Shown here: one piece after another, positions 11,011 through 55,355 of the stretch | Numbering within the stretch: position 1 is the stretch's first letter | Layout: each line of letters begins with the position of its first letter | Source: Saccharothrix longispora | GTDB lineage: Bacteria > Actinomycetota > Actinomycetes > Mycobacteriales > Pseudonocardiaceae | Direction of reading: 5' to 3' | Length of the DNA: 64,000 nucleotides | NCBI RefSeq assembly: GCF_030852425.1 | Contig: NZ_NSDM01000002.1 | Span: forward strand, 124,001 to 188,000 | Notes under the pieces: generated by a model | The model's database searches: none | Seen by the model: only the letters and a program-made list of their open reading frames with translations | What the model was told of the DNA's origin: nothing | Position numbers and translations under genes: made by a program

Positions 11011-11078
11011 ACGATACGAGCGCGGGGTGGGCGCACCCACCCCTAAGCCGGGCGGCACAGGGGCGGTGCGGCCCCTAG
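11011..11078 (-). promoter_or_regulatory. Promoter and activator sites for terminal PKS gene
   Basis: On the minus strand, CTAGGGG (from + 11072-11078) and TTAGGGG (from + 11040-11046) lie 32 bp apart. A TATCGT -10 hexamer (11011-11016) starts 24 nt past the inner heptamer, the same distance as before the carboxylase gene. The heptamer would replace a -35 box, as expected for an activator-dependent promoter. The gene starts about 75 nt further on. Confidence 0.6.
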
Positions 11079-11200
11079 TCGGGGACGGCCCGGACGCGCG
11101 GCGGCGCGGCGCCGCGGTGCCACGCGGTCCACTCGGGACTTCGCCGGAGGGGTGCCGGTCGGTCCTCCGGGACAAGGGGTTCAGATTCGCCGAAGGTCTG

Positions 11201-11220
11201 CTTTAGAGCCGCTTTAGGGG
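11201..11220 (+). promoter_or_regulatory. Direct-repeat activator site before sugar operon
   Basis: TTAGAGC (11203-11209) and TTAGGGG (11214-11220) repeat with an 11-bp period, in the same orientation as the deacetylase gene starting at 11397. The arrangement matches sites before the ligase, aminopeptidase and carboxylase operons. No good TANNNT hexamer sits 24 nt downstream, so the exact promoter is unclear. The rest of 11079-11396 shows nothing else I can name. Confidence 0.55.
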
Positions 11221-11396
11221 TTGTCGGCCGCCCTCGGCGGATGACAGGTTTTCCCCAGCTTCGAAGGACTTCTTCACCTCTCCACCGCACCGCGCCCACC
11301 AGTTCCCCCGGCAGTGGCCGGTTCGGAACGGGACCTGCCCGGATCGACCCGGCAGGCCGTCGGGGCTCGCCCATCGGACTAAGGCTGGGGATCGGT

Positions 11397-12083
11397 ATGC
11401 ACAGGCAGATGCGAAGGCTCCTGGTCGTGGGAGCCCACGGGGACGACGAGACCCTCGGCGCGGGCGGCACGATCGCCCGGCTCGCCGAAGAGGGCGTGAC
11501 CGTGTCCCTCTGCGTCCTGACCAACGACGACGGCTCGCGCTCGGAGACCGGGAGCGGCGTCATCAACCGTACGGCGGCGATCGAACTCGCGGCGAAGACG
11601 CTCGGGATCGAACGGCTGCGCATCCACGAGTTCGGCGACAACCGGCTCGACACGGTCGGCCACCTCGAGCTGAACCGGGTCGTGGAGCGCGAGGTGCGCG
11701 ACTTCGAGCCGGACACGATCTTCACCACCGGCATGAGCGACCTGAGCACCGACCACGCCCTGGTCAGCCGCGCGGCCCGGGTGGCCGGTCGTCCCGGCAA
11801 GGGCAGCGTGCGGGAGCTGCGCACGTTCGAGGTGCGCTCGGCCACCGACGTCGGCGAGGCGTCCGGCCTGCCGATCACGTTCCGCCCCAACTGCTGGCAG
11901 TGCCTGGACGAGACGCACCTGGAGCGCAAGGTCGAGGCGCTGCGCGCCTACGGCAAGGAGCTGGAGCCCTGGCCCAACCCGCGCAGCGAGCGGGGCGTCC
12001 GGGCCCTGGCCGAGTACCGGGGGTCGCAGATCTCCGTCGGCCTCGCCGAGGCGTTCGAGATCGTCCGGTTCGTCCACCACTGA
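11397..12083 (+). CDS. PIG-L family N-acetylglucosaminyl deacetylase-like protein
   Basis: A 228-residue LmbE/PIG-L hydrolase. The metal-binding motif AHGDDE stands near residue 17, and the later conserved Asp-His pair is visible in STDHALVSR. Family members remove N-acetyl groups from amino sugars, including sugars on secondary metabolites. It is first in a three-gene run with a nucleotide-sugar dehydrogenase and a decarboxylase. It therefore probably deacetylates a 2-acetamido sugar, either as the nucleotide sugar or after transfer. The ATG at 11397 follows GGCTGGGGATCGGT. An in-frame start at 11241 is open but would add 52 atypical residues. A second ATG at 11409 is also possible. The upstream TTAGGGG repeat places it in the cluster regulon. 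Confidence 0.85.
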   Translation: MHRQMRRLLVVGAHGDDETLGAGGTIARLAEEGVTVSLCVLTNDDGSRSETGSGVINRTAAIELAAKTLGIERLRIHEFGDNRLDTVGHLELNRVVEREVRDFEPDTIFTTGMSDLSTDHALVSRAARVAGRPGKGSVRELRTFEVRSATDVGEASGLPITFRPNCWQCLDETHLERKVEALRAYGKELEPWPNPRSERGVRALAEYRGSQISVGLAEAFEIVRFVHH

Positions 12084-12091
12084 CCACGCCC

Positions 12092-12110
12092 GCGGGGTCG
12101 CGCACCCCGC
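12092..12110 (+). terminator. Small GC-rich hairpin after deacetylase gene
   Basis: GCGGGGT (12092-12098) and ACCCCGC (12104-12110) form a 7-bp stem with a 5-nt loop in the 71-nt gap before the dehydrogenase gene. With no T run it may attenuate rather than end transcription, so I still regard the three sugar genes as one unit. Confidence 0.3.
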
Positions 12111-12154
12111 CCCTCCCGCGATTCCCACTGCCTGCCAGAGACGGGTGACCAGCA

Positions 12155-13444
12155 ATGACCAGTACTGTCGTCGAACACCAGACCGTGGCCGAGCCGACCG
12201 AGCTGAAGTCCGTCGCGGTCGTCGGCCTGGGCTACGTCGGGCTCCCGACCGCGCTCGGCCTGCACGCGGGCGGGATCGAGGTGATCGGCATAGACCTCTC
12301 CCAGAACAGGTTGGACGCCATCCGCGCCGGCGACGTCGACCTCATCGACTCCGACCAGCGCCAGCTGGAGAAGACCCTGCACCAGGACTTCCGGCTCACC
12401 ACCGACTCCAGCCGGATGGCCGAGGCCGACGCCGTGCTCGTGTGCGTGCCGACCGGCCTCGACGAGTACCTGATGCCGGACCTCGGCCCGCTGGAGGCCG
12501 CGTGCGCGGCCCTGGTCGCCAACGCCCGCCCCGGCCAGACGCTGATCCTGACCTCCACCAGCTACGTCGGCACGTCCCAGCGGCTGCTGGTGGCGCCGCT
12601 GACCGCCAAGGGGTTCAAGGTCGGCCGCGACATCTTCGTGGCGTCCAGCCCCGAGCGCATCGACCCGGGCAACGTCACGCACACCCAGGCCGGGACGCCG
12701 CGCGTGCTCGGCGGCGTGACCCCGGCGTGCACCGCGATGGCGCAGCGCGTGATCAACGTGCTGACGCCCGCCGTGCACTGCGTCAGCTCGCCGGAGGCGG
12801 CCGAGATGACCAAGCTGTACGAGAACACCTTCCGCGCGGTGAACATCGCGCTGGCCAATGAGTTCGCGGAGATCAGCGACGGGTTCTCGATCGACCCGAT
12901 CGAGGTGATCGAGGCGGCGGCCAGCAAGCCGTACGGCTTCATGGCCTTCCACCCCGGCCCCGGCGTCGGCGGCCACTGCATCCCGTGCGACCCGCACTAC
13001 CTGCTCTGGCAGCTGCGGGCGACGCGGAGCAACGCGCCCCTCGTGACCCAGGCCATGCACGCCATCGCGGAGCGGCCCAAGCAGGTCGTCGACCGCCTGG
13101 CGGACACGCTGTCCCGCAACGGCAAGGGCGTGGTGGGCACCCGCGTCCTGGTGGTCGGCGTGACCTACAAGCCGGGGGTGCGCGACGTGCGGTCGTCCTC
13201 GGCCCTGGACATCATCGACCTGCTCGCCGCGAAGGGCGCGGTGGTGGGGTACCACGACCCGCTGGCGCCCAACGTGCGCGTGACGGGCGGCTCGCTGGAC
13301 AGCGTCGTCGAACCGGACGGCGCCGACTGGGACATCGCCCTCATCCACACCGTGCAACCGGAGCACGACTACCACTGGCTTGCCCGGTGCCCGGTGGTGG
13401 TCGACGCGACCTACCGCTTCGACCCTGCCCTGTTCGCGCTCTGA
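12155..13444 (+). CDS. Nucleotide-sugar 6-dehydrogenase, UDP-N-acetylhexosamine type
   Basis: A 429-residue NAD-dependent dehydrogenase of the UDP-glucose/GDP-mannose dehydrogenase superfamily. The N-terminal Rossmann motif is GLGYVGLP (residues 24-31) and the catalytic Cys275 lies in GVGGHCIPCDPHYL. The GHCIP-DP-YL form is typical of the WecC/WbpA branch, which oxidises UDP-N-acetylhexosamines to uronic acids. UDP-glucose dehydrogenases usually have GGSCFPKD instead. The likely reaction is therefore UDP-GlcNAc to UDP-GlcNAc uronate (inference). The product would feed the decarboxylase 12 nt downstream. The combination with a PIG-L deacetylase supports an N-acetyl substrate. Confidence 0.88.
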   Translation: MTSTVVEHQTVAEPTELKSVAVVGLGYVGLPTALGLHAGGIEVIGIDLSQNRLDAIRAGDVDLIDSDQRQLEKTLHQDFRLTTDSSRMAEADAVLVCVPTGLDEYLMPDLGPLEAACAALVANARPGQTLILTSTSYVGTSQRLLVAPLTAKGFKVGRDIFVASSPERIDPGNVTHTQAGTPRVLGGVTPACTAMAQRVINVLTPAVHCVSSPEAAEMTKLYENTFRAVNIALANEFAEISDGFSIDPIEVIEAAASKPYGFMAFHPGPGVGGHCIPCDPHYLLWQLRATRSNAPLVTQAMHAIAERPKQVVDRLADTLSRNGKGVVGTRVLVVGVTYKPGVRDVRSSSALDIIDLLAAKGAVVGYHDPLAPNVRVTGGSLDSVVEPDGADWDIALIHTVQPEHDYHWLARCPVVVDATYRFDPALFAL

Positions 13445-13456
13445 GAGGAACCCGAC

Positions 13457-14416
13457 ATGCGCTACCTGATCACCGGCGGGGCCGGGTTCATCGGCTCCCA
13501 CCTGACCGAGCACCTGCTGGAGCGGGACCACGAGGTCGTCGCGCTCGACAACCTCAGCACCGGCACCCTGGACAACCTCGCGGGCGTGGCCGGGCACGCC
13601 GGCTTCCGCTTCGTGCGCGGCTCCGTGACCGACCCGGAGGCGGTCGAGGCCTGCATGGCCGGCGTCGACGCGGTGTTCCACCTCGCGGCGGCCGTGGGCG
13701 TGTTCACCATCCTGGACAAGACGCTGGAGAGCCTGCGGACCAACCTGCACGGCACCGAGGTCCTGCTGGAGGCCGCGCTCCGGCACGACGTGCCGATCCT
13801 GGTGGCCTCCACCAGCGAGATCTACGGCAAGAACACCGCGGACGGGCTCACCGAGGACTCCGACCGGATCATCGGCTCGCCGCTGAAGACCCGCTGGTCC
13901 TACGCCGAGGCGAAGGCGCTGGACGAGACGCTGGCCCACCTGTACGCGGTGGAGCACGGACTGCGCGCGGTGATCGTGCGGCCGTTCAACACCGTCGGTC
14001 CGCGCCAGACCGGCCGCTACGGCATGGTGATCCCGCGCTTCGTCACCCAGGCGCTCGCGGGCGAACCCCTCACCGTGTTCGGCGACGGGCAGCAGACGCG
14101 CTGCTTCTGCCACGTGCACGACGTCGTGCCGGCGCTGGTGCGGCTGCTGTCCGACGAGTCGGCCTACGGCAAGGTGTTCAACCTGGGCAGCAACGAGCAG
14201 ACGACGATCTCGCAGCTCGCGGAGCGGGTGATCGCCGCGACGGGCTCCACGAGCGCCATCGCGAAGGTCCCGTACGAGGAGGCCTACGGCGAGGGCTACG
14301 AGGACATGCAGCGCCGCATCCCCGACTGCTCCAGGGCCCGCGAGCAGATCGGCTTCGCGCCGGTGCACACCCTCGACGGCATCATCGAGGCCGTGGTCGC
14401 CGACCGCCGCCGCTGA
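13457..14416 (+). CDS. NAD-dependent UDP-uronate decarboxylase-like SDR enzyme
   Basis: A 319-residue extended short-chain dehydrogenase. It shows GGAGFIGSHL at residues 7-16, a TSEIYGK segment, the catalytic YAEAK Tyr-Lys pair and NTVGPRQTGRYGMVIPRF, which recalls UDP-glucuronate decarboxylases (UDP-xylose synthases) more than 4-epimerases. It starts 12 nt after the dehydrogenase with AGAGGAACCC before the ATG, so the two are surely co-translated. Together they should turn a UDP-hexosamine uronate into a UDP-2-acetamido-pentose. A 4-epimerase role cannot be excluded without a phylogeny. Confidence 0.82.
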   Translation: MRYLITGGAGFIGSHLTEHLLERDHEVVALDNLSTGTLDNLAGVAGHAGFRFVRGSVTDPEAVEACMAGVDAVFHLAAAVGVFTILDKTLESLRTNLHGTEVLLEAALRHDVPILVASTSEIYGKNTADGLTEDSDRIIGSPLKTRWSYAEAKALDETLAHLYAVEHGLRAVIVRPFNTVGPRQTGRYGMVIPRFVTQALAGEPLTVFGDGQQTRCFCHVHDVVPALVRLLSDESAYGKVFNLGSNEQTTISQLAERVIAATGSTSAIAKVPYEEAYGEGYEDMQRRIPDCSRAREQIGFAPVHTLDGIIEAVVADRRR

Positions 14417-14448
14417 CCGGTACGACCCCGACCGGCACGACCCCGACC

Positions 14449-14512
14449 GGGAAGCGCCCGGGGGTCGTGGGTGCGGCCGACTCGCCACACCCACGCCCCT
14501 CGGGCGCTTCCC
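14449..14512. terminator. Strong bidirectional hairpin terminator
   Basis: GGGAAGCGCCCG (14449-14460) pairs with CGGGCGCTTCCC (14501-14512). Inside it, GGGGTCGTGGGTG pairs with CACCCACGCCCC except for one bulge, giving about 24 base pairs. It lies between the converging decarboxylase and LAL regulator genes. A tandem 15-bp repeat (CGGYACGACCCCGAC, 14418-14447) stands just before it. Confidence 0.75.
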
Positions 14513-14526
14513 GCGTCCCGGCACGT

Positions 14527-17178
14527 TCAGCGTCCTCCCTCGGCCGCGGTGAACTCGCCGGCCAGGGCCGAACGGCCGGGCACGCCGAGCTTGCGGTAGA
14601 CGCGGGTCAGGTGCTGCTCCACCGTGCTCACCGTGATGTACAGCGTCTCCGAGATCTGCCGGTTGGTGCGGCCGGCCGCCGCCAGCTCGGCCACCCGCAG
14701 CTCGGCCTCGCTGAGCACCGCCGGCGTCGTCGCCGGCGCGCCGACCGCGACCGGCACGGTGACCGGGGCCGGCACGCCCGCCGTCGCCCGGCTGCCGGCC
14801 CGCTCGGGGCGCGGTCCCACCGACCGGGAGACGGCGACCCTCGCGAGCTGCCGCCGCACCCGGACCGGTGCGACCGGGCCCCTGGCCCGCTGCGCGTCCT
14901 GGCCCAGCCGGTTGAGCATCCGCGTCGTCCGCGCCAGCTCCAGCCGGTCGCCGGAGGCCCGGAACTCCTCCGCCGCCCGGTTCAGCATGCCCTGGCGCTC
15001 CGCGGCGTCACCCGCCTGCGCCAGCACCCGCAGGGCGGCGCCCCGCGAGCCGTGGTCGGACGGCGCCGCGTAGGCGAGCTGCTGGTTGGCCAGCTCCACG
15101 GCGAGGGTCGGGTTGCCCAGCCGCAGGTTCGCCTCCGCGAGGTCGGTGCGCCACGGCACGAGCACCGGCACCTCCAGGTCCCACCCGCGCAGGGTCCGCT
15201 GGCACTGCTGGAAGTCGCTGACCGCCGCCAGTCCCCGGTTGGTCGCCAGGTGGAACCGGCCGCGCGCCCGCAGGTACCGGACGCCGCCCAGGGTCGTCAG
15301 CGCCGCGTCCGGCAAGGGCCTGCGCAGCACCGCCGCGGCCGCCTTGAACGCGCCTGCCTCGGTGTGCGCGCTCAGCAGCGTCGCCAGCGGGTGGCTGATC
15401 GCGACGCCCCAGTTCGGCCCGTCCAGCAGGGCCAGCGCCCGGTCCGCCCGCTCGGCGGCTCCCGCGACGTCACCCCGGCGCAGCACCAGGCTCGCGGCGA
15501 TCGCGTCGAGCATCGCCTTCCAGGTCACCGCGCCGCGGTGCTCGGCCTCCTCGCTGAGCGAGGCGCACCAGCCCTCGGCGCGATCGGCCTTGTCGTCGTG
15601 GGCCAGCGCGAGGATCGCCGTGCAGAGCGCTTCGAGCGAGGTGTCCGACAACCGGCAGCTGTGCAGGATGCGTTCCGCGCCGGCCGACGCCCGCTCGGTC
15701 CCCTCCGCGCGCCACACGGCGGAGAGCGCTTTCACCGTGTGCAGCCAGGGGTCGTCGCTGTCCGGCAGGGTCACCGACGCGCCGTAGTGCCAGTGGCCGG
15801 CGAGGCTCAGCTCGGCCACCGTGCGCGGGTCGAGCGGCTCGTCGTCGACGAGCGCCGCGAACGCGCGCTCGAAGGTGTCCCGGTCCCCGAACCACAGCGC
15901 CTGCCGCGCGAGCGCGACCCGGTCGGAGCGGTCCAGCGAGTCGCCCGCCGCCCACCGCGTCCTCAGGTGCGGCGCCGCGGCGGTCGGGTTCACCCGCCAG
16001 GTGATCTTGGCGAGCAGCTGGGAGATCCGCTGCCGCACCCACCCCGTGGCCGGTGCCGAGGCGGCGAGTTCCAGGCACCGGGTGGCGAACTCGACGTCGT
16101 CGTCGAGCATGACCTGTTCCGCCGCCTCCAGCAGGGTCCGCGGCGCCCAGTCGACGTCCGCCTCGCCCGCGGCCACGAGGTGACGGGCGATGTCGGGGGA
16201 CGCCAGCCCCAGCGAGTGCTTGACGTCGGCGGCCCGCGAGTGCAGTCGCGCCCTGGCCGGGCCGCGCAGGCCGCCGATGATCGCGGCGGCGGCCGCCGGC
16301 TGCCGGAACCGGACGCCCTCGACCAGGCCGGAGTCGGCCAGCCGGCAGGCGGACGCCTCGGCGTCGCCCGGGTCCACGCCGGCGACGACGGCCAGCGCGT
16401 CCAGGCCCATGTCGGTGTCCAGCACCGCGATCGCCGTCGCCACCTCGCGCAGCGGCGAGCCGCAGCGGTGCAGCAGCTGCCGCACCGCCTCGGCGTACGC
16501 CGCGTCGGCGTCGGCGCCGGCGCGGTGGGCGTCGACCAGCGCGTCGGCCAGCAGCGGGTTCCCGGCGCTCAGCTCGTGGACCTGCCCGGGCAGCCAGTCG
16601 GGCCCCTCCCCCACCAGCTCCGCGATGGCCCGCTCCGACAGCGGCGTCAGCTGCACGTGCCGGTGCGGCTGGGCGGCGAACGGCAGGCCGCCACCGGAGC
16701 CGGAGCCGCTGAGCACCAGCAGCACGGCGGCGGACCGGGTCCGCCGCTGTAATCGCAGCAGCAGCCGGACCGAGGTCCCGTCCACGTGTTGGAGGTCGTC
16801 GACGGCCACCAGCACCGGGCGTTCGCGCGCCAGCCGGTGCAACGCGCCGCACACCCCGGCGATCCGCTCGTCGTCCCAGTCGCCGAACTGCTCCGCCAGC
16901 GCCCGGGGCACCCCGGGGCACGCCAGCAGCTGGTCGATCACGCCGCCGTCGACGTCCTGCTCGTCGGCGGCCCCGGACGCGGTGAGCGTGAGGATGCCCA
17001 GCTCGCCGGCCCTGGCCACCACCTGGTCCTGCAACCGCGTCTTCCCGCTGGCCGGTGCTCCGTCGACCAGCACGGTCTCCCCCGTGCCCCCCTCGCATCC
17101 GATCAGCAGACCCCGCAGGAAGTCCGACGCCTCCCGCGGATCGATCCGGTGGTTCTGCTGCCCCCAGTTCACGCCCAT
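14527..17178 (-). CDS. LAL-family (large ATP-binding LuxR) transcriptional activator
   Basis: An 883-residue regulator. A P-loop GAPASGKT at residues 40-47 and a Walker B VLVAVDDLQ near residue 120 form the ATPase region. A long helical, TPR-like middle follows. The last 65 residues are a LuxR/NarL helix-turn-helix (LSEAELRVAELAAAGRTNRQI and STVEQHLTRVYRKLGV). LAL proteins such as MalT and many PKS-cluster regulators are activators. It is the only regulator of this class in the cluster and is the best candidate to bind the TTAGGGG repeats before the PKS, starter, sugar and carboxylase operons; MalT boxes are also G-rich direct repeats. A weaker pair of such sites precedes its own gene. The start at 17178 is the only good one. 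Confidence 0.92.
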   Translation of the reverse strand: MGVNWGQQNHRIDPREASDFLRGLLIGCEGGTGETVLVDGAPASGKTRLQDQVVARAGELGILTLTASGAADEQDVDGGVIDQLLACPGVPRALAEQFGDWDDERIAGVCGALHRLARERPVLVAVDDLQHVDGTSVRLLLRLQRRTRSAAVLLVLSGSGSGGGLPFAAQPHRHVQLTPLSERAIAELVGEGPDWLPGQVHELSAGNPLLADALVDAHRAGADADAAYAEAVRQLLHRCGSPLREVATAIAVLDTDMGLDALAVVAGVDPGDAEASACRLADSGLVEGVRFRQPAAAAAIIGGLRGPARARLHSRAADVKHSLGLASPDIARHLVAAGEADVDWAPRTLLEAAEQVMLDDDVEFATRCLELAASAPATGWVRQRISQLLAKITWRVNPTAAAPHLRTRWAAGDSLDRSDRVALARQALWFGDRDTFERAFAALVDDEPLDPRTVAELSLAGHWHYGASVTLPDSDDPWLHTVKALSAVWRAEGTERASAGAERILHSCRLSDTSLEALCTAILALAHDDKADRAEGWCASLSEEAEHRGAVTWKAMLDAIAASLVLRRGDVAGAAERADRALALLDGPNWGVAISHPLATLLSAHTEAGAFKAAAAVLRRPLPDAALTTLGGVRYLRARGRFHLATNRGLAAVSDFQQCQRTLRGWDLEVPVLVPWRTDLAEANLRLGNPTLAVELANQQLAYAAPSDHGSRGAALRVLAQAGDAAERQGMLNRAAEEFRASGDRLELARTTRMLNRLGQDAQRARGPVAPVRVRRQLARVAVSRSVGPRPERAGSRATAGVPAPVTVPVAVGAPATTPAVLSEAELRVAELAAAGRTNRQISETLYITVSTVEQHLTRVYRKLGVPGRSALAGEFTAAEGGR

Positions 17179-17235
17179 CGCTCACTCCTCGAACGAGGCG
17201 GGTCTTCTTCTGGCGGTACCGACGGTCGCAGCACG

Positions 17236-17263
17236 TCCCTAAGCCGAACCAACCGCAATCTAA
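17236..17263 (-). promoter_or_regulatory. Possible autoregulatory site before LAL gene
   Basis: On the minus strand, TTAGATT (from + 17257-17263) and TTAGGGA (from + 17236-17242) lie 21 bp apart, in the same orientation as the regulator gene. They resemble the other cluster sites but fit less well, and no -10 stands at the usual 24-nt distance. On the plus strand of the same gap, ATAGGGG (17318-17324) points towards the thioesterase gene. Confidence 0.35.
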
Positions 17264-17363
17264 ATCACACGATGAGGTGAACTTGAGCAGGTGTCGCCCG
17301 GCGTGCCCGGCCGCGCGATAGGGGTTGCCCACCAGGGGGAGGTGGCCGAAGACTCCGTGAACT

Positions 17364-18140
17364 GTGACTGCCGTGAACGAGAGAACGAGCCGATGGATTC
17401 GGCGATTCCACGCGGCCGAGGCCGCTGCCGTGCGGTTGGTGTGCCTGCCGCACGCCGGCGGGTCCGCCACGGCCTACTTCCCGTTCTCCCGGGTGGCCGC
17501 CGAGGCCGGGGTGGACGCCGACGTCGTCGCCGTGCAGTACCCGGGCCGCCAGGACCGGCGGGGTGAGCGCTGCCTCGACGACCTGGCCACCATGGCCGAC
17601 GCGGTCGCCGACGACCTCGGCCCGTGGTTCGACCGGCCCGTGGCGCTGTTCGGCCACAGCATGGGCGCGACGCTCGGCTACGAGGTCGCGCGCCGGCTGG
17701 AGGCGCGGGGCACCCCTCTCCTGGGGCTGTTCGCCTCCGCGTGCCGGGCGCCGTCCGCGCAGCGCGTCGAGTACGTCCACCAGCGCGACGACGACGGCCT
17801 GATCGCCGCGCTCCGGGAGCTCAGCGGCACCGACAGCGCCGTGCTGGGCGACGACGAGCTGCTGCGCATGGTGCTGCCCGCCATCCGCGGGGACTACACC
17901 GCGGTCGAGACCTACCGGCACCGGGCGGGGCGGGAACTGGACTGCCCGATCCACGTGCTGGTGGGCGACGACGACCCGGTCACCGACCTCGGCGAGGCGG
18001 AGGCGTGGGGCGCCCACACCACCGGCGGCCACGTCGTGGACGTGCTCCCCGGCGGCCACTTCTACCTCAACGCCCAGCTCGACCGGGTCCTGGCCACGGT
18101 CGCCGCCCGCCTGCGCGAGTGGCACGACGCCGCCGCCTGA
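17364..18140 (+). CDS. Type II (editing) thioesterase
   Basis: A 258-residue alpha/beta hydrolase with LVCLPHAGG near residue 28, catalytic Ser99 in GHSMG, and a late GGHFYL histidine, which is the classic RifR/GrsT pattern. Such enzymes free stalled acyl groups from PKS carrier proteins. The start is the least certain of the main genes: a GTG at 17364 has only weak ribosome-site character, and a second GTG at 17373 is possible. It is divergent from the LAL regulator and is followed by a hairpin and the PqqD-like gene. Confidence 0.9.
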   Translation: MTAVNERTSRWIRRFHAAEAAAVRLVCLPHAGGSATAYFPFSRVAAEAGVDADVVAVQYPGRQDRRGERCLDDLATMADAVADDLGPWFDRPVALFGHSMGATLGYEVARRLEARGTPLLGLFASACRAPSAQRVEYVHQRDDDGLIAALRELSGTDSAVLGDDELLRMVLPAIRGDYTAVETYRHRAGRELDCPIHVLVGDDDPVTDLGEAEAWGAHTTGGHVVDVLPGGHFYLNAQLDRVLATVAARLREWHDAAA

Positions 18141-18167: not shown

Positions 18168-18257
18168 GTTCGGGGGTCGGCCTCATGTCCCGGCGGGGTC
18201 GGGTTCGCGACACTGGGTACATCGGGGAGACAGCCCCACCTCTCGGAGGTAGTGATG

Positions 18258-18697: not shown

Positions 18698-18719
18698 GCG
18701 GGAACCCCGTGAGGGGCCC

Positions 18720-21700
18720 TCAGCCCTGCGACTCCAGTTCCTCGTCCAGGAGGGCGAACAGCTCGTCCGCGCCGACCTCCGCGATCGCCACGTCCTCCGG
18801 GGAGAGCGCGGCCACGAGCGCCTTCAGCCGGGCCCGCACCAGGGTGCGGGCGTCCTCGTCCAGCACGCTGTCCCGCAGCGCGGCCTCCAGCCCGCTCAGC
18901 CCGGACTCCACCGGGGACGAGGTGTCGGTCAGGCCCTCGCCCAGGAAACCGGCCAGCGCGACCGCGGACGGGTGGTCGAAGATCAGCGTCGCGGGCAGCC
19001 GGCGGCCCGTCACCGCGTCCAGCCGGTTGCGCAGCTCGATCGCCGTGAGCGAGTCGAAGCCGAGTTCGATGAAGCCCTTGCGCGGGTCGACGGCGTCCCG
19101 CCGCTCGTGCCCCAGCACCACCGCCGCGGTGTCGCGGACCAGGTCCAGCAGGGCGCGGTCCCGTTCCCCGGCGGGCAGCGCGACGATCCGCGGCCACCGG
19201 TCGTCGACCGGCTCGGCCCGCCGCCGCGCACCGCCGCGCACCAGGCCCCGCAGCATCGCGGGCACGCCGTGCGCGTCGGCCCGCACCCCGCTCATGTCCA
19301 GCCGCACGGGCACCAGCGACGGCTGCCCGCACCCGAGGGTCGCGTCGAACAGTTCGAGCCCGTCCGCGAACGACAGCCCGAGCACCCCGGACCGCGCCAT
19401 CCGGAGCAGGTCGGTCTCCCCCAGCTCGCCGGACATCCCGCCCTCGGACCACAGCCCCCAGGCCAGCGACACCGCCGGCAGCCCGAGCGCGGCCCGGTGG
19501 TGCGCCAGCGCGTCGAGGAACACGTTCGCGGCCGAGTAGTTCGCCTGCCCGGCCGCGCCCAGGGTCCCGCCGGCGGACGAGTACAGCACGAACGCCGCGA
19601 GGTCGAGCGAGGCCGTCAGCTCGTGCAGGTGCCAGGCGGCGTCGACCTTGGGCCGCAGGACCGCGTCCACCCGCTCGGGGGTCAGCGCGAGCAGCACCCC
19701 GTCGTCCACCACCCCGGCCGTGTGCACGACCGCCGTCAGCGGGTGCTCCGCCGGCACCCCGGCCAGCAGCGCGGCGACCGCGTCCCGGTCCGCCAGGTCG
19801 CAGGCCGCGAACGAGACCGACGCGCCCAGCTCCGCCAACGAGGCCGACAGCTCCGCGGCGCCGGGGGCGGCGGCGCCGCGCCGGCTCGTGATCAGCAGGT
19901 GCCGCGCGCCGTGCGCGGTCACCAGGTGCCGCGCGATCAGCTGTCCCAGCACGCCGGTGCCGCCCGTGACGAGCACCGTCCCCGCGGGGTCCGGGCGGAC
20001 CGGGTCGCCGGGTGCGGGCGTGAACTTCGCCAGCCGGTGCACCAGGACCGCTCCGTCGCGGACCGCGACGCCGGGTTCGTCGGCGTACATCGCGCCGAGG
20101 ACGACGTCCACCGGCGGGGCGGCCCCGTCGACGTCCACGACCATGAACCGGTCCGGGTACTCCAGCTGGGCCGTCCGGATCACGCCCCACAGCGCGGCGT
20201 GCGTCAGGTCGTCGACGCCTTCCTCCGGTCGGGTGGCGATCGCCCCCGACGTCACGACGACCAGTCGTGAGGCCGCCGGCACGTCGTCGCCCACCCACGC
20301 CCGCGCGAGCTCCAGCAGCCGGTGGGTCGCCTCGCGCGCCCGCTCCGGTGAGGTCCGTCCGGGCGTCGGGAACGGCGCGACCACCACGTCCGGGGCGATC
20401 GCGCCGGCCCGCACCGCCGCGACCAGCGCGTCGAGGTCCGCGAACGACGGGCCGCCGAACCCGAACACGTCCTCGCCGAGCACGGCCGACGTGGTCCCGG
20501 TGACGGCGTCGCCGGTCCACGGCGTCCACTCGACCCGGAACAGCGAGTCGTCCACCGCCGAGCGGGCCGTCGCGGCGAACGCGTCGTCCGCGATCGGCCG
20601 CAGCGCCAGCGACCCCGCGGTCAGCACCGGGACGCCGGTCGGGTCCGTGGCGGTCAGCGACACGGAGTTCTCCACGTCGGAGGTCAGCAGCACCCGCAGG
20701 GCCGACGCGCCGGTGGCGTGCAGGGACACCCCGGACCACGCGAACGGCAGCACCGGGACGTCCGCGGTCGGCCCGGCGAGCCCGATCGCGTGCAGCGCGG
20801 CGTCCAGCAGCGCCGGGTGCACCCCGTACGACGCGGCGTCCGCGTGCTCCGGCAACGCCACCTCGGCCGCCACCGCGTCGCCCACCCGCCACGCCCGGCG
20901 CAGCCCGGCGAACACCGGCCCGTAGTCGAACCCCTGCTCGGCGAGCCGGTCGTAGCGGTCGGCCACGTCGAGTTCGACCGCGCCCGGTGGCGGCCACGCG
21001 GCCGGCGCGGCGGGCGCGTCGGCGTCGGGCGAGAGCCTGCCGCCGCCGTGCCGGACCCAGTCGTCGGAGCCCTCGGCCTGCGAGTAGAGGTCCAGCGGAC
21101 GGCCGCCGGAGTCGTCCTCCGCGCCGACCACCACCTGGAGCCGCACCCCGCCCTCCCGGGGCAGGACCAGCGGCGCGGCCAGCGTCAGCTCGTCGAGGCG
21201 TCCGCAGCCCACCTCGTCGCCGGCCCGGGTGGCGAGTTCGACGAACGCCGTGCCGGGGAACAGGACCGAGCCCCGCACCACGTGGTCGGCCAGCCACGGC
21301 TGGGTCCGCAGCGAGAGCCGGCCGGTGAGCACCGCGCCGCCGGAGCCGGCCGTGACGACGACGGCGCCCAGCAGCGGGTGCTCCGCGTCGCGCTGGCCCA
21401 CCTCGGCGACGCCGCGCACGCGGGCGCCGGTCGGGTTCTCCAGCCAGTAGCGCTTGCGCCGGAAGGCGTACGTCGGCAGTTCGACGGCCTTGCCGCCGGC
21501 GTGGAAGGCGGGGAAGTCCACCGCCGCCCCGGCGACGAACAGCGACGCCACCGCGGCCGCCGCCGACTCGTCCTCGGGCCGGTCCTCGCGCAGCACCGGG
21601 ACGAACGCCGCGCGGTCGTCACCGGTCAGGCAGGTCTGCCCCATCGCCGTCAGCACCGGGCGCGGCCCGACCTCCACGAACGTGGTGACGCCCGAGTCGA

Positions 21701-45927: not shown

Positions 45928-45975
45928 AAATTAACCGCGACGACGTGGCCCGCCACACCCCTAGCGGCCCCCTAA
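45928..45975 (-). promoter_or_regulatory. Promoter and direct-repeat activator site of starter operon
   Basis: On the minus strand, TTAGGGG (from + 45969-45975) and CTAGGGG (from + 45958-45964) repeat with an exact 11-bp period. TAATTT (45928-45933) starts 25 nt past the inner heptamer and is a good -10. The predicted transcript begins about 60 nt before the ligase gene. Confidence 0.65.
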
Positions 45976-49881: not shown

Positions 49882-49967
49882 GCTCATCACCTCGCTCGCT
49901 GTCCACGTCCCGCCCGACGCGATCGGGCCGCTTCCATGTCTAACCGCCGCCGGATCTCCTCCACCAG

Positions 49968-49985
49968 CCCCTAAGGGGGATCTAA
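49968..49985 (-). promoter_or_regulatory. Direct-repeat activator site, aminopeptidase / glycosyltransferase gap
   Basis: On the minus strand TTAGATC and TTAGGGG repeat with an 11-bp period, 87 bp before the aminopeptidase start and in its orientation. TAGACA (49937-49942), 26 nt from the inner heptamer, is a weak -10 candidate. The rest of the 340-bp gap to 50221 holds the 5' leader of the glycosyltransferase gene, where I see no clear promoter. Confidence 0.55.
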
Positions 49986-50221
49986 AGCGGTCCTTGCGCC
50001 GGCGGGGGTGTGGAGCTGTCGTCCGGGCGCGCGATGACCCGCGGGGGCGCGCCCGTCGGTGCTCCCGCCCTACCGCACCCCGTCCCGGAGGGGAAGGCGT
50101 CCCCGGCGGAACAGGGGTTCCGCTCCTACCGGGACCTTGTCGGGTCGGCCGGGCGGCGCGCCGGCCGTACCGTTTCCCCGACAGGCCTGGATCTCCCGCC
50201 CGTGACCCCGGAGTGTGTGCG

Positions 50222-51484
50222 ATGCGCGTCATGCTGATGGTCTTCCCGACGAGGACGCACGTCTACAGCATGGCACCGGTCGGGTGGGCGCTGGCCGCCG
50301 CCGGGCACGAGGTGCGGTTCGTCGGCCAGCGCAACCCGCGCGAGGTCGCCTCGTTCGCCGAGACCGGCCTCGACGCCATGTGGTTCGGCGGGGACCTCGA
50401 CATCGCCCGGCACCGGCGGCTCCAGGTCGACGGGGACAACGCGATGCAGGGCGGGTTCCGGATCTCGGAGAGCCGGCCGGAGCGCTACACCGAGGAGTAC
50501 GTGCGCAACGTCTACGAGCACTGGGTGGACGTCTTCCGCTGGACCACCCCGGACCCCCTGCTCGACGAGCTGGTCCGGTTCGCCCGCCACTGGCGGCCGG
50601 ACCTCGTGGTGTGGGACCCGATGATCTACGCCGCGCCGATCGTCGCGCGGGCCGTCGGTGTTCCGCACCTGCGGATGATGTACGCGGCGGACCAGACCGC
50701 GCGGATCGCCGCGCAGTACCGGGACCTGCGCGCGAGCCGGCCGGACGACCGCTCGCCCGACCCGTTCGTGGAGTGGATGACCGCCGCGGTGGGCCGGTTC
50801 GGCGCGGACTACGACGAGACCCTCCGCCACGGCGTCAAGACCATCGACTGCCACCCGTCCTACCTGCGGTACGACGGGGTGGACGTCGACTACGTGCCCG
50901 CGCGGTTCGTCCCCCAGAACAAGCCGATGGCGATCCCGCGGTGGGTGCTCGACGAGCCGGAGCGCCCCAGGGTGATGCTGACGCTGGGCGTCTCGAACCG
51001 CCAGGTGATCGGCATCGAGGAGACGTCCGTGGCCGACCTGCTCAACGGCCTCGCCGGCCTCGACGTCGAGGTCGTCGCGAACCTCGACGCGAACCAGCTG
51101 GCGTCGGTCGGGAAGGTACCGGACAACGTGCGCGCGGTGGACTTCGTGCCGATGAACGAGCTGCTGGCCGGCTGCTCGGCCATCGTGCACCAGGGCGGCG
51201 GCGCGACCATCGGCAACGCCGTGGTGAACGGCGTGCCGCAGCTCGTGATCCCCGGCACCACGTGGAGCGAGCGGGTGTCCGCGGTGGCCCAGGTCAAGCG
51301 CGGCAACGGCCTGCTGGTGGACCTGGAGGACGTCACGCCGGACTCGGTCCGCGCCGGCCTCCAGCGGCTGCTGGAGGAGCCGTCGTTCCGCGACTGCGCC
51401 GCCGAGGTGCGCGACGAGATGCTGGCCACCCCCACCCTCGACGACCTCGTCCCGGAGCTGGAACGGATCGCCCGGTGGCGGTGA
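50222..51484 (+). CDS. Macrolide-type glycosyltransferase (GT1 family)
   Basis: A 420-residue GT-B enzyme of the antibiotic glycosyltransferase type (VinC, EryCIII, DesVII relatives). The N-terminal acceptor half begins MLMVFPTRTHVYSMAPVGWA. The donor half has the conserved VHQGGGATIGNAVVNGVPQL signature. As the only glycosyltransferase in the window it should attach the amino-pentose made by the 11397-14416 operon to the macrolactam. No P450-like activator partner is encoded. The ATG at 50222 has GGAG eight bases upstream. The stop overlaps the histidine kinase start by one base (TGATG), so the two are translated together. Confidence 0.9.
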   Translation: MRVMLMVFPTRTHVYSMAPVGWALAAAGHEVRFVGQRNPREVASFAETGLDAMWFGGDLDIARHRRLQVDGDNAMQGGFRISESRPERYTEEYVRNVYEHWVDVFRWTTPDPLLDELVRFARHWRPDLVVWDPMIYAAPIVARAVGVPHLRMMYAADQTARIAAQYRDLRASRPDDRSPDPFVEWMTAAVGRFGADYDETLRHGVKTIDCHPSYLRYDGVDVDYVPARFVPQNKPMAIPRWVLDEPERPRVMLTLGVSNRQVIGIEETSVADLLNGLAGLDVEVVANLDANQLASVGKVPDNVRAVDFVPMNELLAGCSAIVHQGGGATIGNAVVNGVPQLVIPGTTWSERVSAVAQVKRGNGLLVDLEDVTPDSVRAGLQRLLEEPSFRDCAAEVRDEMLATPTLDDLVPELERIARWR

Positions 51485-52590
51485 TGCCCCGGCCGGGGCC
51501 GGTCCGGACCATCGTCTTCCTCCTCGCGAGCTTCCCAATCCGGCTGGTGGTGTTCCCGCTCGTGGTCGTGACGACCGTGCTCGGCATCGTCACCATCATG
51601 CTGTGGGTCGGCATCCCCGTCCTGGTGGCCGCGACCTCCCTGGTCCGCGGTTTCGCCGACCTGGAGCGCGCCTGGGTGCGCGCCATGCTCGGGGTCGACG
51701 TGGCGACCCCCGACCGGCTGCCGGGCGGCGGGGGGCTGCTGCACACCTGGCAGGTCCGGCTGGTGGACCCGGTGACCTGGCGCGAGCTGATCTACGTGCT
51801 GCTCGCGCTGCCGCTGGGCATCGTCGAGTTCGTGGCCGGGATCGTGTCGGTGGCCGTGCCGCCGTTCGGGATCTTCGTGGCGCCGAAGATCGGGGAGCTG
51901 CACGGCGCGCTGGCGCTGTCGCTACTGGGGCCCGACCGCACGGCCCAGCTGGAGGCGCGCACCCGGCGGCTGAAGGACTCCCGGGCCCGCGCCGTCGACG
52001 CCGTGGAGGCCGAGCGCCGGCGCATCGAGCGGGACCTGCACGACGGGGCGCAGCAGCGGCTGGTGGCCGTCGCGATGAGCCTGGGCCGGGCCCGGCTGAA
52101 GCTCGACTCGGACGACCCGGCCGCGGCGCGCGAGCTGATCGGCTCGGCCCACTCCGACGCGAAGCTCGCCGTGTCCGAGCTGCGCGACCTCGCCCGGGGG
52201 ATCTACCCACCGGTGCTCCAGGACCGCGGCCTGGACGCGGCGCTGTCGTCGTTGACGGCCCGGATGCTGATCCCGGTGGACGTCCGGGTCGACGTGGAGC
52301 CGCGCCCGCCCGCGCCGGTGGAGACCGCGGCGTACTTCATCGTGAGCGAGACGCTGGCCAACATCACGAAGCACGCGGGCGCCGGCCGCGCCTCGGTGCG
52401 GGTGACGCGTGACGACGACACCGTGGTCGTCGAGATCACGGACGACGGCCGCGGTGGCGCCTCCCCCCGGCCCGGTGGCGGCCTGGCCGGTCTGGTCGAC
52501 CGCGCCGCGACGATCGACGGCGTGCTCACCGTGGTCAGCCCGGTCGGCGGGCCGACGGTGGTGCGCGCCGACCTCCCCGTCCGCTGGTGA
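51484..52590 (+). CDS. NarL-type sensor histidine kinase
   Basis: A 368-residue membrane sensor kinase. About four hydrophobic segments occupy residues 9-53 and 103-133, forming a short membrane sensor with no large external domain. A HisKA_3 dimerisation helix carries His186 in ERDLHDGAQQR. A HATPase region follows with SETLANITKHA and DDGRGG. It should phosphorylate the response regulator encoded 19 nt downstream. Kinases of this build often sense cell-envelope stress. Overlap with the glycosyltransferase gene suggests a link to product tolerance or pathway control, but this is inference. Confidence 0.9.
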   Translation: MPRPGPVRTIVFLLASFPIRLVVFPLVVVTTVLGIVTIMLWVGIPVLVAATSLVRGFADLERAWVRAMLGVDVATPDRLPGGGGLLHTWQVRLVDPVTWRELIYVLLALPLGIVEFVAGIVSVAVPPFGIFVAPKIGELHGALALSLLGPDRTAQLEARTRRLKDSRARAVDAVEAERRRIERDLHDGAQQRLVAVAMSLGRARLKLDSDDPAAARELIGSAHSDAKLAVSELRDLARGIYPPVLQDRGLDAALSSLTARMLIPVDVRVDVEPRPPAPVETAAYFIVSETLANITKHAGAGRASVRVTRDDDTVVVEITDDGRGGASPRPGGGLAGLVDRAATIDGVLTVVSPVGGPTVVRADLPVRW

Positions 52591-52609
52591 CTTCCCCGAG
52601 GAGCGCGAG

Positions 52610-53263
52610 ATGCGTGTCGTGATCGCCGAAGACTCCGTGCTCATGCGCGCCGGCGTGCAGAGCCTGCTCGCCGATGTCGGCATCGAGACGGTCGCGGCCG
52701 TGGCCAACGGGGACGACCTGCTCCTGGCCGTCCGCGAGCACCGGCCGGACCTGGTGATCGCCGACGTCCGGATGCCGCCGACGTTCACCAACGAGGGGCT
52801 GCGGGCGGCGCTGGCCGCCCGCCAGGAGTTCCCCGGGCTGCCGGTCCTCGTGGTGTCGCAGTACGTGGAGGGCAGCTACGCCGTCGACCTGATCGCCAAG
52901 GGCGCCGCCGGGGTGGGCTACCTGCTCAAGGAGCGCGTCGCCGACGTGACCGACTTCCTGGAGGCGGTCCGGCGCGTGGCGGGCGGCGGTTCCGCGATCG
53001 ACCCCGAGGTGGTCGCCCAGATGCTCTCCCGCAGCCGGGACCCGCTCGACGCCCTCACCGCGCGCGAGAAGGAGGTGCTGGGCCTGATGGCGCAGGGCCT
53101 CTCGAACGCGGCCCTCGCGCGGAACCTGAGCGTCACCCAGGGCGCCGTGGAGAACCACATCAGCAACATCTTCGCGAAGCTCAGCCTGGAGGCAAGCCGC
53201 GACGAGAACCGGCGCATCCGCGCGGTGCTGACCTACCTGGACAGCACCGTCGTGCGCACGTGA
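52610..53263 (+). CDS. NarL/FixJ-family response regulator
   Basis: A 217-residue two-domain regulator. The receiver has the acidic pair near residue 7, phospho-acceptor Asp52 in LVIADVRMPP and a conserved Lys in YLLKE. A LuxR helix-turn-helix (LTAREKEVLGLMAQGLSNAALA, about residues 145-205) binds DNA. GAGGAG precedes the ATG. It is the partner of the kinase just upstream and has no separate promoter that I can see. A small hairpin at 53288-53303 may end the transcript. Confidence 0.92.
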   Translation: MRVVIAEDSVLMRAGVQSLLADVGIETVAAVANGDDLLLAVREHRPDLVIADVRMPPTFTNEGLRAALAARQEFPGLPVLVVSQYVEGSYAVDLIAKGAAGVGYLLKERVADVTDFLEAVRRVAGGGSAIDPEVVAQMLSRSRDPLDALTAREKEVLGLMAQGLSNAALARNLSVTQGAVENHISNIFAKLSLEASRDENRRIRAVLTYLDSTVVRT

Positions 53264-53287
53264 CCCGGTCCGGGCGGACCCGCCGCC

Positions 53288-53303
53288 GAACCCCGAGGGG
53301 TTC
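53288..53303. terminator. Small hairpin between converging genes
   Basis: GAACCCC and GGGGTTC form a tight inverted repeat around GA, overlapping the stop of the carboxylase epsilon gene. It lies 25 bp after the response regulator stop. The stem is short, so termination is uncertain. Confidence 0.35.
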
Positions 53304-53484
53304 AGCGACGGGTGCGCCAGCTCGTGGAGGCCGGGTAGGAGGTCGGCCGGCGGGGCCTGGGGACCGGGGGCGCCGGCTCCCCCGCCCGGATGGCACCGGC
53401 CACCGCGGAGAGCACCGCGACCAGGGCGGCGAGCTCGTCGTCGTCCGGCGAGCCGCGCAGGACGCGCACGTCGGGCTCGCCCAT
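53302..53484 (-). CDS. Acyl-CoA carboxylase epsilon subunit
   Basis: A 60-residue protein of the actinobacterial AccE/PccE type. It has the usual start of a charged strand and acidic linker (VRVLRGSPDDDELAALVAVL), then a hydrophobic helix and a basic proline-rich tail. Epsilon subunits stabilise the alpha-beta carboxylase complex. Its ATG shares one base with the stop of the beta-subunit gene (TGATG), the normal arrangement for this pair. Confidence 0.88.
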   Translation of the reverse strand: MGEPDVRVLRGSPDDDELAALVAVLSAVAGAIRAGEPAPPVPRPRRPTSYPASTSWRTRR

Positions 53485-55058
53485 CAGACCGGCGGGTTCC
53501 CGTGCTTGCGCGCCGGGATGTCGGCGTGCTTGGCCCGGAGCATCCGCAGCGCGCGGACCAGCAGCTCGCGCGTGCGGCCCGGTTCGATCACGTCGTCCAC
53601 CAGCCCGCGCTCGGCGGCGTAGTAGGGGTGCATCAGCTCGGTGCGGTATTCCTTGATCTTCAGGCGGCGCATGCCCTCGGGGTCGTCGGCCGCCTTGATC
53701 TCGCGGCGGAAGATGACGTTGGCCGCGCCCTCGGCGCCCATCACGGCGATCTCGTTCGTCGGCCACGCCAGAGAGACGTCGGTGCCGATGGAGCGCGAGT
53801 CCATCACGATGTACGCGCCGCCGTATGCCTTGCGCAGGATGACCTGCACCCGCGGCACCGTGGCGTTGCAGTAGGCGTAGAGCAGCTTCGCGCCGTGCCG
53901 GATGATGCCGCCGTGCTCCTGGTCCACGCCGGGCAGGAAGCCGGGCACGTCCACGAGCGTCACGAGCGGGATGTTGAAGGCGTCGCACGTCTGCACGAAC
54001 CGCGCGGCCTTCTCGCTCGCCTCGATGTCGAGCACGCCGGCGAGCACGGTGGGCTGGTTCGCGACGATGCCGACCGCGTGACCGTCCATCCGGGCCAGCG
54101 CGCACACGACGTTGGTCGCCCAGCCCGCGTGCACCTGGAAGAACGCGCCGTCGTCCACGATCTCCTCGATGACGGCGCACATGTCGTAGGCGCGGGTCGA
54201 GTCGGTCGGCACGAGCTCGACCAGCCGGTCGGTCCGGCGGTCGGGCGGGTCGTCGGTCGGCTCGACCGGTGGTGCCTCGTTGTTGTTGGACGGCAGGAAG
54301 GAGATCAGGTACCGCACGTCCTCGATGCAGCTCTGCTCGTCCTCGTAGACGAACGCGGCGACGCCGGAGGTCGTGGCGTGCACGTCCGCCCCGCCGAGGC
54401 CGTTCTGCGTGATCTCCTCGCCCGTCACCGCGTGCACCACGTCCGGGCCGGTGATGAACATCTGCGAGGTCTCGCGGACCATGAACACGAAGTCGGTCAG
54501 CGCCGGCGAGTACGCCGCGCCGCCCGCGCACGGGCCCAGCATCACCGAGATCTGCGGGATGACCCCGGAGCACCGGGTGTTGCGCTGGAAGATCCCGCCG
54601 TACCCGGCGAGCGCCGTGACGCCCTCCTGGATGCGGGCGCCGGCGCCGTCGTTGAGGGACACCAGGGGCGCGCCGGCCGCCGCCGCGAGGTCCATCACCT
54701 TGTGGATCTTCTGGGCGTGCGCCTCGCCGAGCGCGCCACCGAAGATCCGGAAGTCGTGCGCGTACACGAACACCGTGCGGCCGTGCACCGTTCCCCAGCC
54801 GCAGACGACACCGTCGGAGTACGGCCGCCGGTGCTCCAGGCCGAAGCCGGTGGCCCGGTGCCGGCGCAGGGCCTCGACCTCGGTGAACGACCCCGGGTCG
54901 AGGAGCAGTTCGATCCGCTCGTGCGCGGTCAGCTTGCCGCGCTCGTGCTGCCGGGTGGTCGCCGCGTCGTCGGGCCCGCGGCGAGCCGCGTCCTTGATCT
55001 GGCGCAGCTCCACGAGCCGGTTCTCGAACGCCGCCTCCACCGCCACTGCCTCAGTCAT
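53484..55058 (-). CDS. Acyl-CoA carboxylase beta subunit (carboxyltransferase)
   Basis: A 524-residue biotin-dependent carboxyltransferase of the AccD5/PccB type, close to the usual family length. It contains GGALGEAHAQKI, NDGAGARIQEG, GPCAGGAAYSPALTDF and the second crotonase-like half with DVPGFLPG and YGGAYIVM. With a biotinylated alpha subunit from elsewhere it makes malonyl-CoA or methylmalonyl-CoA. All clearly readable ATs in this cluster look malonyl-specific, so malonyl-CoA supply is the likely job. The ATG at 55058 follows GGAGG. The 250-nt leader begins at a promoter with the cluster TTAGGGG repeat, which ties a primary-metabolism enzyme to the pathway regulon. Confidence 0.9.
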   Translation of the reverse strand: MTEAVAVEAAFENRLVELRQIKDAARRGPDDAATTRQHERGKLTAHERIELLLDPGSFTEVEALRRHRATGFGLEHRRPYSDGVVCGWGTVHGRTVFVYAHDFRIFGGALGEAHAQKIHKVMDLAAAAGAPLVSLNDGAGARIQEGVTALAGYGGIFQRNTRCSGVIPQISVMLGPCAGGAAYSPALTDFVFMVRETSQMFITGPDVVHAVTGEEITQNGLGGADVHATTSGVAAFVYEDEQSCIEDVRYLISFLPSNNNEAPPVEPTDDPPDRRTDRLVELVPTDSTRAYDMCAVIEEIVDDGAFFQVHAGWATNVVCALARMDGHAVGIVANQPTVLAGVLDIEASEKAARFVQTCDAFNIPLVTLVDVPGFLPGVDQEHGGIIRHGAKLLYAYCNATVPRVQVILRKAYGGAYIVMDSRSIGTDVSLAWPTNEIAVMGAEGAANVIFRREIKAADDPEGMRRLKIKEYRTELMHPYYAAERGLVDDVIEPGRTRELLVRALRMLRAKHADIPARKHGNPPV

Positions 55059-55308
55059 GGGCGAACCTCCGGTCGGTGAGCCGATCCGCCGGGTGCCGGG
55101 ACACGGCCCCCTGGCGGTGGGTGTGAGTGGGTGCCCGCCCGCGGGCGCCGCACGGAAGCCGGTTCCCGTCGTGCGGCGGGCACGTCGACCGCGTCCCCGC
55201 CCGGGTGTCGCGGGGCCGGTGAACCCGGTCCCGCGCGGTCTGCCCCGAGTGGACGGTCGTGTCATCCCGTCGCCTTCCGCGTCGGACCGGACCTCTGTTC
55301 CTCGGGCA

Positions 55309-55355
55309 AAAGTAGCCGCGCCGATTCGGCTCAACGACCCCTAAAGCCCCCCTAA
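55309..55355 (-). promoter_or_regulatory. Promoter and activator repeat of carboxylase operon
   Basis: Two perfect TTAGGGG heptamers on the minus strand (+ CCCCTAA at 55338-55344 and 55349-55355) repeat with an 11-bp period. A TACTTT -10 (55309-55314) starts exactly 24 nt past the inner one. This is the best version of the site in the window. Confidence 0.7.

Follow-up and report, generated by a model that had tools for sequence, protein, structure and literature searches.

Regulators of the LAL class, typified by MalT of Escherichia coli (PMC3282765), are large proteins of 872–1159 aa (PMC6022917), and the box GGA[TG]GA has been assigned to MalT (PMC9628970). For FkbN, the LAL of the tacrolimus cluster, the motif GGNNNNCCC was reported (PMC8306873). 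The PAS-LuxR activators PimM and PteF have the box CTVGGGAWWTCCCBAG (PMC6448028), the LuxR-family protein RifZ directly activates the whole rif cluster in Amycolatopsis mediterranei (PMC7062684), and the operator of PimR, a SARP-LAL regulator, contains CGGCAAG three times (PMC5930380, PMC3367932). Here we describe a heptamer, YTAGGGG, that recurs upstream of the operons of a polyketide cluster in Saccharothrix longispora. It was found in a stretch of 64,000 nucleotides (contig NZ_NSDM01000002.1, positions 124,001–188,000; "the window"), which corresponds to C12:124001-188000 of the 8.28-Mb genome (G000) and holds most of a beta-amino-acid macrolactam cluster of the ciromicin type. With considerable confidence, based on sequence comparison, we regard the heptamers as the putative operator of the LAL protein encoded within the cluster (14527–17178, minus strand), which would activate the macrolactam pathway in class-II fashion.

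Heptamers and their register to the -10

Each of five operons in the window is preceded by a pair of heptamers in direct orientation. Upstream of the terminal polyketide synthase (PKS) gene, on the minus strand, the inner half-site TTAGGGG (11040–11046) is followed by the -10 hexamer TATCGT (11011–11016), 30 nt from the first base of the heptamer, and the outer half-site CTAGGGG (11072–11078) stands 32 bp, or three turns, upstream. The sugar operon, on the plus strand, has TTAGAGC (11203–11209) as its outer and TTAGGGG (11214–11220) as its inner half-site, with the -10-like CAGGTT at 11245–11250. The remaining three are on the minus strand: the starter-ligase operon with CTAGGGG (inner, 45958–45964), TTAGGGG (outer, 45969–45975) and the -10 hexamer TAATTT (45928–45933); the operon of the VinJ-like aminopeptidase with TTAGGGG (inner, 49968–49974), TTAGATC (outer, 49979–49985) and the -10-like TAGACA (49937–49942); and the carboxylase operon with TTAGGGG (inner, 55338–55344), an exact second copy (outer, 55349–55355) and the -10 hexamer TACTTT (55309–55314). 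Together with a pair above the LAL gene, described below, these are the six pairs listed in the initial annotation of the window, and all six were found where it had placed them, each directed at its gene. Three of the outer copies in the window (sugar, aminopeptidase and LAL) have only TTAG or TTAGA in common with the heptamer.

The nearest orthologs of the LAL protein came from ten Amycolatopsis records, and the clusters of these ten genomes (G001–G010) were compared with the window after their genes had been placed by tblastn. One of them, G001, is A. saalfeldensis DSM 44993, which is reported to contain the asa cluster and to produce ciromicin A (PMC10662134). The asa cluster is described in that paper with eight regulators and a gene content matching the window cluster, and by this content the G001 ortholog locus would be asa. 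Gene order is mostly kept among the ten, though G002, G004, G008 and G010 show some rearrangement near their PKS and sugar genes; in these four the best PKS match has only 63–65% identity and could correspond to a different PKS gene of the cluster.

The same site precedes most operons of the cluster: it was found at 11/11 PKS, 11/11 sugar, 10/10 ligase, 10/10 aminopeptidase and 9/9 carboxylase operon starts (the G007 contig stops short of the carboxylase), or 51 promoters in the window and the ten ortholog clusters. In all 51 a -10-like hexamer is located 30–32 nt past the first base of the inner heptamer. In the promoters of the PKS, ligase and carboxylase operons the hexamer is TAnnnT; all 30 have it at an offset of 30 or 31 (31 in every ligase promoter), and a scan of offsets 15 to 45 showed it nowhere else. 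The corresponding word is TAGACA at 31 or 32 in the aminopeptidase promoters (10/10) and CARRTT at 30–32 in the sugar promoters (11/11), both patterns having been picked post hoc. Three promoters of G002 that were added later have the site as well, with TAnnnT at 31 upstream of the ligase and the carboxylase and TAGACA at 32 upstream of the aminopeptidase. Since promoter sites were chosen for TAGGGG or TTAGG-like heptamers, the fractions with YTAGGGG are in part a product of selection; the register to the -10 was not selected. The distance of 24–25 nt between inner copy and -10 given by the initial annotation holds when counted from the last base of the heptamer and equals 30–31 nt from its first base, and the 51 promoters bear out its proposal of a cluster-wide operator at a fixed distance from the -10.

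It had also been suggested that the activator replaces a -35 box. This idea was rejected, as the gap of 23–25 nt between heptamer and -10 has room for a -35 hexamer plus a spacer of 17–18 nt. With such a spacer the -35 hexamer would begin directly after the heptamer, so that the bound protein would abut the -35 from upstream. At the sugar operon, the PIG-L reading frame has its first ATG at window 11241, in overlap with the proposed -10. The true PIG-L start probably lies downstream, because 8/10 orthologs align only from residue 43–50.

Conservation is concentrated on the inner heptamer, with an identity of 0.97–1.00 versus an average of 0.65–0.77 in the flanks (five operons, up to 11 clusters). 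In eight orthologs the carboxylase site lies 606–692 nt farther upstream. The period of 11 bp, which the initial annotation took to be general, was not: the ligase pair is spaced by 11 bp in the window and 10 bp in all ten orthologs, and the carboxylase pair by 11 bp in the window and G001 and 10 bp in eight others, so that 18 of the 19 ortholog promoters of these two operons have 10 bp. Sugar pairs are spaced by 11 bp in 11/11 clusters (TTAGAC being the outer word in the ten orthologs) and aminopeptidase pairs by 11 bp in ten and 22 bp in G002, where the word is again TTAGATC; the outer word of both operons is TTTAGA-like (TTTAGAY). The outer copy of the PKS promoter, 32 bp away in the window, is 33, 21, 21 and 20 bp away in four orthologs, and the remaining six have nothing better than a word with one or two mismatches, 9, 10 or 19 bp away. 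The outer copy thus keeps a distance of one, two or three whole helical turns and not of 11 bp, an arrangement that would suit protomers bound head to tail on one face of the DNA.

Abundance in the window and the genome

TTAGGGG occurs six times in the window (mean expectation 0.78), and the 11-bp pair with up to three mismatches five times (expectation 0.83), one of the five being a shifted overlap at 55327; neither count was reached in any of 100 shuffles. In the whole genome there are 34 exact copies of TTAGGGG as against 129 of the reversed word, and seven of the 34 fall inside the 60-kb cluster (C12:118990-179355). Allowing one mismatch, a genome search for the pair gave two places, both in the cluster; allowing two, it gave seven, three of them in the cluster; allowing three, it gave 73 (five in the cluster) versus 149 for the reversed pattern. 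Being rarer than its reversed control, the loose pair is unspecific by itself. Thus the motif is less common outside the cluster than in it; equal frequency would have spoken against the initial annotation. The two-heptamer model proposed there is specific at one mismatch but not at three.

Non-coding DNA was defined by a custom mask based on GC3, the G+C content at third codon positions. In the non-coding DNA of the window extended by 20 kb to the left and right, no 7-mer exceeds its expectation more than TAGGGGT (seven copies versus 0.32 under a second-order model). Over whole loci, under a first-order Markov model, YTAGGGG gave p values of 0.036 for the window region and 0.009–0.039 for the five nearest LAL loci described below, modest values that made the restriction to non-coding DNA necessary. 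Other stretches of the same genome contain YTAGGGG twice in 9.5 kb and not at all in 12.4 kb. On a contig without a LAL match, two copies of TTAGGGG were seen on opposite strands about 22 bp apart (C19:5798-5826).

The LAL protein and the linkage of the motif to LAL genes

The LAL protein of the cluster has 883 aa, a size within the range of the class. It contains an N-terminal Walker A motif of the form GxxxxGK[ST] (GAPASGKT at residue 40), with an AAA_16 match of 32.5 bits that is slightly below the cut-off of 32.6, and a C-terminal LuxR-type helix-turn-helix (HTH) domain (GerE, residues 821–873, E 2.7e-12). By sequence, the solved HTH domains closest to it are those of ChrA and GerE. The NCBIfam MalT model is matched over the HTH only and far below its cut-off. 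The recognition helix of the HTH is nearly invariant across the LALs compared.

For this comparison 24 loci with other LAL genes were used, 19 in-genus (35–45% identity) and five outside the genus (37–39%). The 19 were taken from 23 LAL matches besides that of the cluster itself, those in G014, G021 (C1:3115987), G023 (C1:255167) and G024 (C1:2328539) being left out. In the counts of register and of SARP genes one locus, G024a, was dropped as near-identical to G017a, leaving 23 non-orthologous loci. TAGGGGT is the top 7-mer near four of the five nearest LAL loci (16 versus 0.93 expected, the near-duplicate fifth being excluded) and near the five LALs outside the genus (21 versus 1.54). In non-coding DNA, YTAGGGG occurs 24 times in 39.5 kb at the five nearest loci (G024a included) and five times in 82.6 kb of 20 random stretches (Fisher 3e-8); the more distant LAL loci have 16 in 82.6 kb, p 0.013 against the same random stretches.

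The register recurs together with the half-site. At the 23 loci, 18 of 98 non-coding NTAGGGG sites have TAnnnT at 30 or 31, with 0.76 expected from the other offsets (p 5e-19) and 0/14 among control sites; some of the 18 are not independent, the sites of G017a and G012 being alike, and likewise two sites of G054. Examples are a 10-bp direct repeat in G025, with TAGCAT at 31, upstream of a reading frame of 4,738 aa that is a PKS by appearance only, and an 11-bp direct repeat in G015, with TACCGT at 31, upstream of a 400-aa frame that resembles a glycosyltransferase, again by appearance only. The finding of the same half-site in the same register near non-orthologous LAL genes points to the LAL as the most likely binder, in agreement with the initial annotation.

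Inverted half-sites are present near some other LALs, for example TTAGGGG-TTA-CCCCCTA. A palindromic form, TTAGGGGTTACCCCCTA, was observed near three related LALs (G012 C1:6931913, G017 C6:45626 and G024 C1:1483665), which suggests that the half-site may be employed in inverted form elsewhere. In G022, on C3, four TAGGGG words with relative offsets of 0, 20, 28 and 48 bp are located about 180–230 nt upstream of the LAL gene (locus G022_40).

A sequence-only profile of the whole promoter layout (R1), built from 20 promoters of four genomes, was run on 28 genomes, scoring the best 150 first-pass candidates per genome. Its best match is inside the cluster in all 11 cluster-bearing genomes (G002 was checked separately). 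In 13 other LAL-bearing genomes and in the S. longispora genome outside the cluster there are 43 further matches with E up to 1 (none in G017), and 15 of these 43 have a non-orthologous LAL gene no more than 100 kb away (1.5 expected; out-of-cluster matches in G001–G010 do not enter this count). In 6 of the 13 genomes the top match has a LAL no farther than 100 kb away. Four in-genus genomes without a LAL at the threshold gave three matches in total. In the S. longispora genome a match at C51:55464 is directly upstream of a thioesterase gene next to a second LAL. At this second LAL cluster (C51:55464-56276) the word upstream of the thioesterase gene is GTAGGGGTTGTC, without TAnnnT at 30 or 31; it resembles words upstream of the thioesterase and sugar genes of the window.

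Other sites in the cluster

The LAL gene itself has the site in a weaker form in 11/11 clusters. In the window TTAGGGA (17236–17242, minus strand), a possible autoregulatory site, is accompanied 21 bp, or two turns, above it by TTAGATT (17257–17263, minus strand); TTAGAT is present at an offset of 21 in all 11 clusters and YTAGGGG in only five. A single ATAGGGG (17318–17324, plus strand) stands upstream of a stand-alone thioesterase gene, and NTAGGGG is found 45–60 nt upstream of this gene in 10/10 clusters, as YTAGGGG in six. Control by the LAL protein probably extends, through these weaker sites, to its own gene and to that of the thioesterase. A variant, ACAGGGG (50111–50117, plus strand), occurs upstream of the glycosyltransferase gene 50213–51484. 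In this interval between the aminopeptidase and glycosyltransferase genes (window 50111–50130) the orthologs repeatedly have an inverted arrangement, TAGGGG followed by CCCCTG.

The genes of the window include modular PKS genes, a VinK-type acyltransferase, two adenylating ligases, an enzyme of the proline-iminopeptidase family, a P450, sugar genes (PIG-L, UDP-glucose dehydrogenase and epimerase), a glycosyltransferase and a carboxyltransferase. The cluster continues past the left edge of the window, where it has another PKS gene. In a stretch of this left flank (L061), three heptamers were noted on the minus strand: TTAGGGG at 14990–14996 upstream of a PKS gene, CTAGGGG at 16094–16100 upstream of an EryCIII-like gene and GTAGGGG at 19822–19828 upstream of an ABC-transporter gene.

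Discussion

We propose that the C-terminal LuxR-type HTH of the LAL protein recognizes the half-site YTAGGGG(T) and its variant TTTAGAY, and that protomers would bind head to tail, separated by one to three turns and facing the same side of the helix. The protomer closest to the promoter would be located at about -42 to -36 relative to the predicted transcription start, bordering a poor -35 hexamer on its upstream side and so able to touch RNA polymerase as in class-II activation; its effect would be activation rather than repression. One activator could switch on the whole pathway, because the PKS, sugar, ligase, aminopeptidase and carboxylase promoters share one register.

Several observations weigh against this proposal. 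The pairs upstream of the LAL gene (11 clusters) and the sites upstream of the thioesterase gene (10 clusters) do not have TAnnnT at 30 or 31. Near the 14 more distant in-genus LAL loci TAGGGGT is enriched (18 versus 2.48) but ranks only about 11th when each word is pooled with its complement, and the LAL loci of G011, G013, G025b and G026 have no or one TAGGGG in 40 kb, so that either some LALs do not use the motif or their targets are more distant. Of the 43 further R1 matches, 28 have no LAL within 100 kb, and in four genomes outside the genus R1 gave two matches among the best 150 first-pass candidates per genome, neither of them near a LAL. Finally, linkage to LAL genes is equally linkage to polyketide clusters. 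A claim of the motif for all LALs was rejected, given the silence of R1 near LALs outside the genus and the in-genus loci that lack the motif. As R1 gave no matches near a LAL outside the genus, the full promoter layout appears not to be carried there, though the half-site and the register are.

What other factor could bind the heptamers? Two further candidate proteins, a SARP and a response regulator, were not considered in the initial annotation, and both are less likely than the LAL. A SARP of 254 aa is encoded at C12:94719-95480, to the left of the cluster; 29 kb separate its gene from the window and 24 kb from the leftmost cluster site. It is found with 82–85% identity in 5/5 ortholog left flanks examined (one match is partial at the end of the stretch). 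Heptamers with spacers of 3–4 nt, that is, with a period of 10–11 bp, are the classic SARP arrangement (PMC5930380, PMC3367932). In the window this period is seen upstream of the ligase, carboxylase, sugar and aminopeptidase operons but not of the PKS and LAL genes. A SARP would not account for pairs 20–33 bp apart or for the inverted pairs found near other LALs. The heptamer given for SARPs is CGGCAAG, and their sites are said to overlap the -35 (PMC5930380, PMC3367932), whereas here the heptamer stops before the -35. A SARP match is also present at nine of the 23 LAL loci (0.66 sites per kb, seven with the register), but the 14 loci without a BTAD match in the 34–40 kb examined at each, beyond which a more distant SARP may lie, have 53 TAGGGG sites, or 0.55 per kb, 11 of them with the register. 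SARP-only stretches of the S. longispora genome, which total 159 kb with four small SARP genes, contain three sites, or 0.08 per kb, and random stretches 0.17 per kb, none with the register in either case. The motif follows the LAL and not the SARP, since LAL loci without a SARP keep the sites and the register and SARP-only loci do not; we consider it unlikely that the SARP binds the heptamer pairs. A copy of TTAGGGG is located at C12:98188, 2.7 kb from the SARP gene.

The response regulator (52409–53263, plus strand) has an HTH of the same class as the LAL and is conserved in 10/10 ortholog clusters (78–88%). Homologs are found near the LALs of G015a (59%), G013 (53%) and G025a (36%), three of the 19 in-genus loci, but six motif-bearing in-genus loci (G017a, G012, G024a, G015b, G024c and G022) have none at E ≤1e-20 in the stretches compared, which makes this protein a highly improbable binder. 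The distribution of the motif across LAL loci thus weakens both proteins as candidates. A rigid register to the -10 would also be expected of a core-promoter feature, such as an upstream element for a sigma factor that serves polyketide clusters, which would need no dedicated binder. Random regions of the same genomes rarely contain the motif, though, and its tandem or inverted pairs with helical spacing look like an operator bound by protein, so that we give a core-promoter feature very little credence as well.

If the LAL protein is the binder, is the code its own or that of a group? We incline to think, with some reserve, that LALs of actinomycete polyketide clusters share one code, YTAGGGG(T) placed 30–31 nt before the -10, with extra half-sites one to three turns upstream or inverted and with a near-constant recognition helix. 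In that case the target promoters of many uncharacterized LALs could be read from sequence. Given a half-site whose register is kept from one non-orthologous LAL cluster to the next, predicted regulons and the activation of silent clusters become directly testable, and the contact between a MalT-class protein and the polymerase can be approached.

Comparison with known systems

The asa and pac clusters of Amycolatopsis, which specify ciromicin-type macrolactams, are of the same type as the window cluster; section 8 and further passages of PMC10662134 give no operator for them. The PAS-LuxR activators share with the LAL protein a LuxR-type HTH, and their half-site CTVGGGA is near to CTAGGGG. 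They differ in having a palindromic box of 16 bp and a PAS sensor, whereas here the copies are head to tail and the protein is of the AAA/LAL kind; the palindromic box is not matched at the biosynthetic operons, whose pairs are direct repeats. FkbN is likewise a LAL activator of a polyketide cluster with a G-rich half-site, but its quoted motif is an inverted pair without a stated register to the -10. The inverted half-sites near other LALs resemble both the PimM box and the FkbN motif.

RifZ comes from the same genus as the ortholog clusters and is, as proposed here, a single regulator that activates a cluster. Its binding motif is reportedly CTACC-N8-GGATG, unlike YTAGGGG. SARP and SARP-LAL operators are similar in their heptameric direct repeats with a period of 10–11 bp and differ in the DNA-binding domain and the heptamer, and a spacing of 20–33 bp is not described for them in the passages cited. 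MalT uses tandem boxes. The parallel with MalT drawn in the initial annotation holds for the class of protein but not for the sequence of the box, since GGA[TG]GA (PMC9628970) differs from the heptamer of the window.

A literature search that left subscription papers mostly outside, and did not cover the context of TAGGGG in PMC3367932, did not find TTAGGGG or TAGGGG as the operator of a LAL. The half-site and its promoter register were not found described in the literature searched; the regulation to which they belong is of a known kind.

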